From assembly GCF_025263685.1 (NCBI RefSeq), contig NZ_CP092109.1, positions 3,907,001-3,971,000 of the forward strand: 64,000 nt of DNA. Direction: 5' to 3'. The position numbers and the translations under genes are program-made. Positions 4,242-57,330 of the stretch are shown here, one piece after another. The notes beneath the pieces were generated by a model. It worked only from the letters and a program-made list of their open reading frames with translations. It was not told where the DNA came from and ran no database searches. This DNA is from Geoalkalibacter halelectricus (GTDB lineage: Bacteria > Desulfobacterota > Desulfuromonadia > Desulfuromonadales > Geoalkalibacteraceae). How positions within the stretch are numbered: the stretch's first letter is position 1; each line of letters begins with the position of its first letter.

Positions 4242-4774
4242 TTTTTCCAACCCTGCCAGGGTTCGGGACATGAAGAGTAAACGATCTTGAGAACATGGTA
4301 TTCATGCTGAGAAACAGGCTGTAGAACCGATGTCCAGCTTGGCGGTTGTATATCCTCCTTGCCGGCACGGCGCTTCAAATAATCCAGCGCTTCAGGAATG
4401 TCCGCGACCAGCCGCAACAGCTTGTCCATCGCCTCAGACTGGGCGACATCGTCAGACTCGTACTTGGAAAAAGCCACCGGCCCACCACCAAAAAGCTGGG
4501 CGGCCTGCGCCTGGTTAATTCCCAACCGTTCACGTAGAGCGCGAACTTCGGCACCGCTGAGCAAACCCTCAACCTGCTTTTTAAACGCCATCATGGCACG
4601 CTTGTTGGTCCGCAATTGAGCGGCATCGCTCTGTTCGCTGCCACAGGCGTCACACAGGCTATAATGCAGATCGAGTTCTGCGGTTTGCCCTTTATACTCC
4701 ACCCGGTTCTTGCCAATTTGTGCGTGCAAACAGCCTTCAGCACATAAAGGACAAATTTGTGATGGGTCATTCAT
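4232..4774 (-). CDS. mqsA: MqsA-family antitoxin with C-terminal extension
   Basis: A 180-residue antitoxin. The N-terminal zinc domain has CPLC at 8-11 and CDAC at 41-44. A helix-turn-helix domain follows at about 78-125 (LRERLGINQAQAAQLFGGG). After it comes an extra tail of roughly 45 residues (PSWTSVLQPVSQHEYHVLK) that standard MqsA proteins lack. The position fits a chaperone-addiction (ChAD) tail recognised by the downstream SecB-like protein. A clear AGGAG ribosome site precedes the ATG, 11 bases after the toxin gene. It should neutralise MqsR and repress the operon through the palindrome at 5202-5216. Confidence 0.87.
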   Translation of the reverse strand: MNDPSQICPLCAEGCLHAQIGKNRVEYKGQTAELDLHYSLCDACGSEQSDAAQLRTNKRAMMAFKKQVEGLLSGAEVRALRERLGINQAQAAQLFGGGPVAFSKYESDDVAQSEAMDKLLRLVADIPEALDYLKRRAGKEDIQPPSWTSVLQPVSQHEYHVLKIVYSSCPEPWQGWKKCA

Positions 4775-4785
4775 GATGATCTCCT

Positions 4786-5208
4786 CTACAACGAGAGATG
4801 ACAGGAAACCAGCAACAGTATGGTTCCGGTTCTGCCAATGGCAAATTTGAGATAATAATCAAATGCAAGCTCTTTACGCGAAGCCTGCACCCACTCATGA
4901 CGGGTCAGCGCATAAGCATCACACGCCGCCCAAGGGCCGGCGGGTTTCTGTTGACACCATTCAGAGCCTGTAAAACGACCGCGCGCAACGGCTTCCGAAA
5001 CCAGAGCAATCAGGTCATCAGGATCCAGGGCCAGTTGTTGGACATCCGCAGCACACTTGCGCGTCCAAACTCGAACAGCCCCCCCTCCGGCTTTCAGCAG
5101 TTTCAAAACCTCCTCTGCCGGATACAACGGGCCACCGGGTATTGTCCGGTCAGCGCCAACTGCCGGCAGAGCACCGCTGAAACGAGAAACAATCATAACA
5201 CTTACCAT
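4786..5208 (-). CDS. mqsR: MqsR-family mRNA-interferase toxin
   Basis: The family core runs from about residue 28 (YPAEEVLKLLKAGGG) through GPWAACDAYALTRHEW to YYLKFAIGRTGTILLLVSCH. MqsR toxins are RelE-fold ribonucleases that cut mRNA when the antitoxin is lost. The toxin gene comes first in the operon, as is usual for mqsRA. The 5' end is uncertain: the ATG at 5208 lies inside a perfect palindrome that is a good operator, and an ATG at 5196 or a later TTG near YPAEEV are alternatives. The N-terminal 20-25 residues do not look like the family. Confidence 0.82.
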   Translation of the reverse strand: MVSVMIVSRFSGALPAVGADRTIPGGPLYPAEEVLKLLKAGGGAVRVWTRKCAADVQQLALDPDDLIALVSEAVARGRFTGSEWCQQKPAGPWAACDAYALTRHEWVQASRKELAFDYYLKFAIGRTGTILLLVSCHLSL

Positions 5209-50946: not shown

Positions 50947-51003
50947 GGAAACCTCCGAACAGAGCGGATTGCTGGACCTCAACTAGGTCCCAATTTCGCC
51001 CCC

Positions 51004-51981
51004 TCAGGTAAAGCCCGCACCGGCGGTGCAGGCATAACAGTGGTCGGCGGTGGCGATGAGAGTGCCCTCGGCGGGCGGCGCGGACAGGTCGCGCACGTGG
51101 GTGCGTTTTTCGCCCTGGCAGATGCCGGCGGCCAGGTGAAAATCGCAATCGAAGACATAACCGTCCCAGGACACACTGATCTGCTCGCGGCACATCAGCC
51201 CTGGAACCACCGTCGGGTTGAAGGCTTTCGCCAGCTTGCCCATATAGGCGTCATAGTTTCCCGATGTTTCCAGCCAGCGGCGGAACCGCCCCAGGGGGGT
51301 GTTGGTCAGGGCGAAGAGACGGTTGAAGACGATATCCCAACGCCTCTGCAGTTCACGACGATAGCGTTTTTCCACGGCCGCCTGGTCGGCAGGTAGAAAA
51401 GCCCCTCCCGGATTGACCGCCAGATGCAGTTCCAGCCCGGAAGCTTCGCGTCCGTAACCCAGTTCATTGAGCCGATGCAGCATGGCCAGACTTTTTTCCC
51501 AGACCCCTGAGCCTCGTTGCGCCTCCACCTGCGCTTCACGCAGGGCGGGAAAAGAGACGACCAGGGCGACGCGATGCTTCACGCAGGTGCTCAACAGGTC
51601 GTTTCTCTCCTGAGAGCCGAGGGCGGTCAGGTTGGAGCGCAACATGAGTTGCGGAATAACATCAGCCAGATCGGAAATAAACCCTTCGATGCCCGGTACC
51701 AGTTCCGGCGCACCGCCGGTAATATCGACCAACTCAAAGTCGCAACGCCGGGCAAAATCGACCACCTCCTTCATGGTCTCCGCACTCATGATTTCACGCC
51801 GATGCGGACCCGCCGTCAGGTGGCAATGCCGGCAGCACAGGTCGCAGATCAGGCCGACATTGACCTGCAGGATGCGGCAGCGACCGCGGTCCAGCTTAAG
51901 TCCGTGGCGTTTCAGGGCCGCGGAAAATTTTTCGATATCGCCTGGCAGTGTCTGCGCCTGCGTTTCTTGCGGACAACCCAT
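51004..51981 (-). CDS. arsS: Arsenosugar-type radical SAM protein ArsS
   Basis: 325 residues. The radical SAM cluster motif C46-x3-C50-x2-C53 lies in VGLICDLCCRHCHLTAGPHR, followed by ELVDITGGAPELVPG and VSFPALREAQVEAQRGSGVW. A DUF3641-type C-terminal domain has PTVVPGLMCREQISVSWDG, VFDCDFHLA and a final CYACTAGAG Cys pair. ArsS is proposed to transfer a deoxyadenosyl group to dimethylarsenite during arsenosugar synthesis. The C-terminus stops soon after CTAGAG, slightly shorter than I expect. It is followed upstream by an AhpD-like gene, the usual pair. Confidence 0.9.
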   Translation of the reverse strand: MGCPQETQAQTLPGDIEKFSAALKRHGLKLDRGRCRILQVNVGLICDLCCRHCHLTAGPHRREIMSAETMKEVVDFARRCDFELVDITGGAPELVPGIEGFISDLADVIPQLMLRSNLTALGSQERNDLLSTCVKHRVALVVSFPALREAQVEAQRGSGVWEKSLAMLHRLNELGYGREASGLELHLAVNPGGAFLPADQAAVEKRYRRELQRRWDIVFNRLFALTNTPLGRFRRWLETSGNYDAYMGKLAKAFNPTVVPGLMCREQISVSWDGYVFDCDFHLAAGICQGEKRTHVRDLSAPPAEGTLIATADHCYACTAGAGFT

Positions 51982-55970: not shown

Positions 55971-56004
55971 TATGGGGTTTGCTGGGGTCGGGCGCGGCTT
56001 AAGT

Positions 56005-56100
56005 TCAGCAGCAGGCGCTGGTTTTGAGGTCTTTACTGTTTGTGAGGATCTGACCGTAATACTCCTTGACCGCGGCCAGAGTCGTTTCGGTGTTCTGCAT
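56005..56100 (-). pseudogene. ArsM-like methyltransferase, N-terminal stub
   Basis: A 31-codon frame from the ATG at 56100 reads TLAAVKEYYGQILTNSKDLK followed by TSACC and TGA. The YYG-x2-L-x-S-x-DLKT-x-ACC pattern is the start of arsenite-methyltransferase-like proteins, in which Cys residues bind As(III). AAAAGGAAACC lies upstream, so it is in the operon of the DUF3179 gene. The rest of the methyltransferase is absent, so this is a truncated gene or, less likely, a small metal-binding peptide. Confidence 0.5.
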
Positions 56101-56116: not shown

Positions 56117-57049
56117 TTATTTCGATGGAAACATTTCGCTGTCGGGATGGATTTCCTTCCACACAAACCAGTAGGCGCTGATGTAGGGCACCCAATCTCC
56201 ATCCTGGTCGGTGATGTGCAATTCGCCCGTAACCTCGTCAAAGGAAAAGAAGAGAGCTTTGCCCGCCAATCGGTCCTTGACTTTACCACGCTTGCGCAAT
56301 TCTTCCAGGGGATAGGCCCGGGCCGTGCCGTTGAGAACCACCCCGGCCACCACCTCTTTGCCGGGGAAACCGCTGACCAGTTCCCGGAAGAATCCGAACA
56401 GCCCGCCGCGGCTACGATAGTAGTTCTCGTAAGGATCACGGCTGTAATCGCGCACATGCCCGGTGTCGAGAGAAAGAACCTCGGTTTGCGGGTGGCGCTT
56501 GCGCCAGTTTTCCCAGGTGGTGAGGGTCGAGGGGAGCACCTCCAGGCGTGTGCCGGTCATGGGGCCGGTGACCGCCTGGTTTTTCACCTGCGACCAGAGG
56601 GATTCGCTCTGGTGGTCGTACATGAGCACATTGGATTTATAGAGCAGACCTGAAACGCCGAAGGTCAGGATTTTACCGTCGATATTTCGGGAGTACACGA
56701 CTCCCGCGAAGGCCAGCGGTCACCAACTGACCAGCAACGGCTCATCGCCGAAGTTCTCGTTGACCAATTCGTGCCAGGAGAGCACGCGAATCGGATAGGC
56801 GCGCGCCACGCCGTTGCGATACACCCCCAACACCCGCTCGTTGTCACGCATGTAATCGGCGTCTGTGGCGGGAACGTATTCGGGGTTGAACAGAGCCGGA
56901 ATGCCGTCGCGCGGCGGGCCGCCGGCGCGAATCTCGCTCAGGGGTATGGCGTGGCGGGAGAAATCCCAAGAGGCTGTCGTGACTGCGGGGAATGCCAATG
57001 AAAGAATCAGGAAAGTCAAGAAGGTGCGCATATTAAGATCTCCTTTCAT
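56117..57049 (-). CDS. DUF3179-domain protein, probable selenoprotein (in-frame UGA at 56720-56722)
   Basis: 310 residues if UGA is read as selenocysteine. Signal peptide MRTFLTFLILSLAFPAVTTA, then the DUF3179 sequence GPPRDGIPALFNPEYVPATD, ARAYPIRVLSWHELVNENFG, EPLLVSW-U-PLAFAGVVYSR, IDGKILTFGVSGLLYKSNVL and SESLWSQVKNQAVTGPMTGT. Typical members read VTYCPLC-x-TA at this spot, so the UGA falls exactly on the first conserved Cys. The frame is unbroken on both sides, and a SECIS-like hairpin follows. If decoding failed, two useless halves of about 109 and 190 residues would result. The protein is periplasmic and its function is unknown. Confidence 0.85.
56688..56706 (-). promoter_or_regulatory. 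Candidate bacterial SECIS element
   Basis: On the minus strand, CGGGAGT-CGTGT-ACTCCCG forms a 7-bp stem with a five-base loop that starts 20 bases after the UGA. Bacterial SECIS hairpins lie directly 3' of the UGA, with the apical loop about 16-37 bases away and a G near the loop start; here loop base two is G. Confidence 0.6.
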
Positions 57050-57254: not shown

Positions 57255-57330
57255 CTAGGAGGCTGTTGGATTATCCGGGCCAAACAGCCGGATTTGCAGC
57301 CGGCTCATGGTTAGTCCGACAGCCTCCTAG
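57255..57330. mobile_element. MITE-like element A, CTAG-bounded (76 bp)
   Basis: Begins CTAGGAGGCTGTTGGA and ends TCCGACAGCCTCCTAG, arms matching at 15 of 16 positions. It is non-coding, with CTAG at both ends suggesting a target preference or duplication. A piece of the same arm (TTAGGAGGCTGT) occurs at 60201. The upstream part of the gap, 57050-57254, is the leader of the DUF3179 gene. Confidence 0.65.

Follow-up and report, generated by a model that had tools for sequence, protein, structure and literature searches.

The minus strand of the window, a stretch of 64,000 nucleotides from Geoalkalibacter halelectricus, carries at 56117-57049 what is well supported by sequence comparison as one DUF3179 selenoprotein gene, and neither a pseudogene nor two genes. 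We favour this reading because of four lines of evidence: a codon column that holds either UGA or Cys across the family, selenocysteine (Sec) machinery in the genome, a hairpin kept downstream of the UGA, and dN/dS ratios on both sides of it. We put the probability of a DUF3179 selenoprotein, with Sec inserted at the UGA by way of the downstream hairpin, at about 0.95; the product would presumably be exported and might carry a one-selenol redox or metal-binding centre.

The translation of 56117-57049 comprises 310 residues with a sole in-frame TGA, codon 110 (56722-56720), in the context LLVSW-U-PLAFAGVVYSR. With the UGA read through in the query, the Pfam profile DUF3179 (PF11376) matches residues 47-277 (E 4.7e-80, 269.6 bits; curated cut-off 27 bits) and so spans the UGA, in agreement with the first-pass annotation, which had joined two halves in one frame across a single UGA. 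ORF calling by rule alone yields two frames of 109 and 193 aa at this locus, as would be expected from two genes, or from an N-terminal product and a downstream part made from an internal start. This explanation is nevertheless highly improbable, as the Pfam match crosses the UGA, AlphaFold2 predicts a single fold across it (mean pLDDT 91.9 for the whole protein, 48 sequences), and the first listed start of the 193-aa frame, GTG 56698, falls inside the hairpin loop described below. The single selenoprotein gene was at first taken to start at 57049, six codons upstream of the likely start. Because the ATG at 57049 overlaps a Shine-Dalgarno-like AGGAGAT (57044-57038) that lies 6 nt ahead of the ATG at codon 7 (57031-57029), the latter is the more likely start, and the coding sequence probably runs from there through the UGA to the TAA (56117..57031); Sec is residue 110 if numbered from 57049. 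A probable N-terminal signal peptide, MRTFLTFLILSLAFPAVTTA (56972..57031, minus strand), was read from the translation, and the AlphaFold2 model has a helix at residues 8-18 with low confidence; by means of this peptide the product would be exported.

The search for DUF3179 gave hits in 27 of the 136 order genomes, and a draw of 395 genomes from the phylum has it in 44. In the 50 aligned rows that could be read, window gene included, the column in question holds UGA 31 times and Cys 19 times and never Trp, and UGA occupies the identical column both within the order of the window and elsewhere in its phylum. This bears out the earlier claim that the UGA sits where the family has Cys, and the alignment of homologs that had been suggested as a check shows the alternation of Sec and Cys. 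The alignment comprised 55 rows, of which five without the column were left out (L011, L043, L048, L049, L069); L069 has a UGA (VTFUPLT) in a separate piece ahead of an in-frame TAG and stands outside the 31/19 count. Two duplicates (L045, L046) and a locus with too short a match (L042) were omitted before alignment. The order-wide search gave 31 match rows, one of which (G016:C42) got no locus and was left out; among the 46 match rows of the phylum search, 16 have no locus, G091 and G001 being covered by order-wide loci and 14 being left out, five of which carry two or more stops. Loci L118-L128 were read apart from this count, L118, L119, L120 and L122 belonging to genomes already counted; by motif, 8 of these 11 read U and one C (L126), and two (L125, L128) do not match the motif pattern. 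Plasmid-borne DUF3179 homologs were seen in haloarchaea, Thiothrix and others (27 records, also outside the column count).

That 31 of the 50 rows share this UGA speaks strongly against a pseudogene in which a Cys codon has suffered a nonsense mutation (TGY to TGA), an explanation that we consider very improbable. It has two observations on its side: the DUF3179 gene has decayed to its C-terminal part in a sibling genome (G001) and is absent from another genome of the same genus (G003), and is therefore dispensable in the genus; and the adjoining methyltransferase gene is truncated. However, the part downstream of the UGA is constrained as much as the part upstream. For three relatives (L010, L031, L026), dN/dS pairs are 0.219/0.993, 0.255/0.864 and 0.273/1.250 upstream and 0.129/0.580, 0.199/1.031 and 0.364/1.868 downstream, giving ratios of 0.22-0.30 and 0.19-0.22, respectively, in three of four comparisons, with dS about 1 or more in most and not computable for the fourth relative. 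Ratios of 0.2-0.3 on both sides, the 31 shared UGA codons and a stem kept beyond codon needs uphold the initial warning that annotation as fragments or as a pseudogene would be wrong.

The stem in question belongs to a bacterial SECIS-type hairpin, CGGGAGT-cgtgt-ACTCCCG (56706-56688, minus strand), which begins exactly 13 nt after the UGA, as the first-pass annotation had stated. Its 7-bp stem (56706-56700 with 56694-56688) closes a 5-nt loop CGUGU (56699-56695) with G at position 2, followed by U. The bSECIS model, as given in PMC13188914, calls for a loop of 3-9 nt with a G among its first two nucleotides, a stem of 4-16 bp, a spacing of 16-37 nt between UGA and loop and an energy of <= -7.5 kcal/mol; the hairpin agrees with it in its 5-nt loop, its 7-bp stem, its spacing of 20 nt and its folding energy of -11.3 kcal/mol. 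The latter value was obtained for the hairpin with flanks (24 nt), and 2 of 200 shuffled sequences fold as well. For the 63-nt stretch from the UGA, whose predicted fold includes the same hairpin, z is -0.98 and 27 of 200 shuffles are as good, which makes this longer stretch unremarkable. An Rfam search of the window at gathering scores returned no match.

Across the family, the 31 UGA loci form a mean of 6.45 of the 7 pairs versus 4.72 +/- 0.15 in 200 synonymous resamplings (maximum 5.16), whereas the 19 Cys loci form 2.95 versus 3.18 +/- 0.20, in a fixed-register pair count that was chosen after the hairpin had been seen. By this count, stem pairs are kept beyond the needs of protein coding in UGA genes and not in Cys genes. 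All seven pairs are formed in 21 UGA loci, six in 7, five in 1 and three in 2, and the pairs covary, pair 5 for example being A-T in 14, G-T in 9 and C-G in 6 of the 31 loci. L071 and L072 form three pairs in register, yet in each of them a 7-bp stem encloses a 6-nt loop; L030, with five pairs, has no unbroken stem of at least 5 bp. A generic folding test on the 48 nt after the codon found UGA and Cys loci alike (mean synonymous z -0.91 and -0.76; p = 0.54) and was given up for the fixed-register count, which alone separates the two groups. This comparative support suggests that the hairpin 13 nt downstream of the UGA would serve Sec insertion.

The Sec machinery that had been proposed as a further check is all found in the genome, which was available as one contig of 4.13 Mb rated 100% complete: there is one tRNA-Sec match above the Rfam cut-off (75.6 bits; 16 weaker matches lie below it), and selA (609.8 bits) and selD (376.4 bits) are both located beside selB (390.8 bits). 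Judged from its reading frame, which needs an in-frame UGA (HSAGUAAKIG), selD (L057 4335-5375 on the minus strand, G000 C1) is a selenoprotein gene itself; the ORF list made by rule starts it after its UGA. Given this genome content and the comparison across the family, the ribosome would decode UGA 56722-56720 as selenocysteine with tRNA-Sec, SelA, SelD and SelB. That the UGA is read as some other residue without SelB, e.g. as Trp by a near-cognate tRNA, is the least probable of the explanations considered. In its favour, one genome rated complete (G331) has a UGA copy and no selB over the cut-off, but the restriction of the column to UGA or Cys in all 50 rows, the conserved SECIS-type stem and the fact that 29 of the 31 genomes carrying a UGA form have selB above the cut-off argue against it. 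As a discriminator between Sec and Cys forms, co-occurrence with selB was dropped, since selB is also present in 17 of 18 Cys-only genomes and its co-occurrence therefore does not discriminate. The UGA gene of G331 (locus L070) reads VTWUPLC and forms 6 of 7 stem pairs, in a genome rated 100% complete in which no selB exceeds the cut-off; a missing contig or something else may account for this.

The first-pass annotation had supposed that selenoproteins of this family might already be recognised, and they are: excerpts of two reviews (PMC9312934, PMC13188914) list DUF3179 (PF11376) as a selenoprotein family with the motif UxxC/T and credit Zhang and Gladyshev 2007 for it. A profile search of the protein against NCBIfam found no model matching at E <= 10. 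The window gene shares with these selenoproteins the Pfam family and Sec at the first position of a CPLC-like motif, but it departs from the motif as printed in the tables of these reviews. It has Ala in place of the second Cys of CPLC, as was seen at the outset, and hence UxxA, and it lies in a branch with Ala or Ser at this position (25 of 31 Sec rows). As far as its sequence tells, the gene is a further member of a catalogued selenoprotein family; UxxA reads as a variant within the family, and UxxC/T as a description of known members that does not define it. At the +3 position the 31 Sec rows have Ala (18), Ser (7), Thr (4) or Cys (2). The Cys-form proteins, which align over the same domain with Cys at the UGA column, differ in having Thr (13), Cys (5) or Ser (1) and never Ala (0/19) and in lacking a SECIS-type stem in register. 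All 25 Sec rows with Ala or Ser fall into one supported branch of the tree (98/96) and therefore go back to one evolutionary change or a few rather than to 18. As drawn, the tree contains three changes between Sec and Cys, of which supported branches force only one, several rows being on long branches. Sec and Cys forms with differing +3 residues thus offer material for the question of when Sec makes the second motif residue dispensable. What is added here to the known family is the UxxA motif, Sec as the lone Cys-type residue and a Rieske-like predicted Sec domain. In addition, plain ORF calling splits one selenoprotein into two fragments at this locus; in test genomes, 195 of 298 known selenoprotein genes were correctly annotated at NCBI, according to an excerpt of PMC12013277.

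The predicted fold of the Sec-bearing domain (residues 80-179; 56513..56812, minus strand) may be Rieske-like, without Rieske ligands, and its model reaches a mean pLDDT of 94.4 when predicted alone. Foldseek found no match to the PDB at E <= 0.001 with either the whole-protein or the domain model. When the whole-protein candidates were re-aligned, ranks 1-16 were Rieske ferredoxins or oxygenases (Z up to 6.5). For the domain, the two top Foldseek ranks, a toluene dioxygenase ferredoxin (E 0.11, probability 0.95) and a NirD-type protein (E 0.33, probability 0.87), are weak matches with rmsd values of 8.0 and 6.4, respectively. The best VIA-align match of the domain is 2de5_D, a 105-residue chain of a carbazole dioxygenase oxygenase-ferredoxin complex (2.8 Å over 91 residues), whose Z of 8.4 is only just above the warning level for common arrangements, Z 7-8 being the typical best score of models without a clear match. 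The best 50 of 222 chains at Z >= 2 either have Rieske-type titles or are chains that we take to be of this type, namely those from nitrite reductase, arsenite oxidase, bc1 and some oxygenases.

At the sequence level, an hhalign comparison with 30 Rieske domains of the order, most of which are presumably of the bc1 type, gave probabilities of 0.1 and 0.3, none of 42 DUF3179 members matched Rieske in Pfam at E <= 1, and a search of solved structures with the DUF3179 protein sequence gave no match at E <= 1. Our literature search found nothing linking DUF3179 to Rieske; besides the two reviews it met DUF3179 only as a table entry in one further paper, and looking for selenoproteins of Geoalkalibacter brought up nothing on this protein. 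Rieske clusters are bound by two Cys and two His in C-x-H and C-x-x-H motifs. Residues 80-179 may resemble Rieske-fold proteins (dioxygenase ferredoxins, NirD, the arsenite oxidase small subunit) in predicted fold, with weak Foldseek support and no sequence-level link, but the DUF3179 protein lacks their ligand motifs: Sec110 is its only Cys-type residue in 310. In 23 of the 31 Sec rows the aligned region is otherwise free of Cys. Among the polar or aromatic residues, those shared by 45 or more of the 50 rows include Tyr85, Trp92, His93, Asn97, Asn140, Asp145, Ser150, Trp152, Gln154, Trp179 and Lys231. The idea that Sec occupies the position of a Rieske Cys ligand was dropped, as the aligned ranges, in which the Rieske domain begins at model residue 16-17 and Sec is model residue 47, would place Sec ahead of the cluster loops.

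Because the Rieske ligand motifs are absent, there is one Cys-type residue only and Sec appears to precede the cluster loops, our best guess from the models is that the protein is exported, carries a lone selenol and is not an iron-sulfur protein. The selenol, located where a predicted beta strand ends, could form a one-selenol redox or metal-binding centre, which would then depend on an external thiol or a partner for its recycling. A wider picture of the family is tentative, and we give it less than even odds: DUF3179 proteins would be exported and contain a Rieske-fold Sec/Cys domain without cluster ligands and with a lone selenol or Cys at a strand end, and in the branch of the Desulfuromonadia relatives Sec would have taken over so completely that the second position of CxxC/CxxT became Ala or Ser, resulting in a one-selenol enzyme in need of an outside reductant. 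Since neither an NCBIfam model nor a solved structure is matched by sequence, the Rieske-like lead and the lone-selenol site provide a handle on DUF3179 function.

About 4 kb from the DUF3179 gene lies arsS (50983-51981, minus strand), which we read as the second selenoprotein gene of the window, with UGA 51006-51004 read through and a stop at 50985-50983. It matches TIGR04167 ("arsenosugar biosynthesis radical SAM (seleno)protein ArsS"), which a literature excerpt lists as a selenoprotein family with the motif GxxU. The rule-based ORF list ends the gene at 51004, and read-through yields ...CTAGAGFT-U-GGEIGT up to 50983, extending the match from positions 2-297 to 2-303 of the 303 profile positions. 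The stretch from the arsS UGA folds at -18.2 kcal/mol (z -1.96), and its 5-nt loop has G third and not in the first two positions. A search of the literature for work joining arsenosugar, ArsS and selenoprotein found nothing. Around arsS there are an AhpD-like gene (TIGR04169), a second peroxidase-related gene and Crp-, TetR- and SpoIIE-type genes.

Directly downstream of the DUF3179 gene is the remnant of an ArsM-like methyltransferase gene, MQNTETTLAAVKEYYGQILTNSKDLKTSACC (55999..56100, minus strand), in which the first 31 codons are followed by TGA-ACT-TAA. Matches to it occur in 10 of 134 genomes, and the nine besides the window genome are open frames of 290-392 aa with no internal stop. 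The short ORF behind DUF3179, which would end in CCUT* if its UGA were Sec, was rejected as a candidate for another selenoprotein because it represents the truncated beginning of a methyltransferase gene that is intact elsewhere without a UGA there. The sibling genome G001 mirrors this arrangement: at L059 (about 4427-4789, minus strand) a C-terminal DUF3179 part lies beside an intact ArsM-like gene, and the window has a whole DUF3179 gene and a cut ArsM. Among 33 neighbourhoods, many of them short and with crude gene calling, no operon partner was widely common to DUF3179 loci; the widest clusters consist of the DUF3179 gene itself and of overlapping frames, followed by clusters shared by 6 loci. 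Just upstream of the DUF3179 gene we found a 76-bp near-palindrome (57255-57330) with CTAGGAGGCTGTYGGA at both ends and an RNA fold z of -4.75. With up to one mismatch, the sequence of its ends is matched at 136 places in the genome, 68 on each strand, versus 2 for a control read backwards, and many of the matches are paired in spans of 76 or 169 bp, so that the element looks like a member of a high-copy MITE-like or palindromic repeat family.
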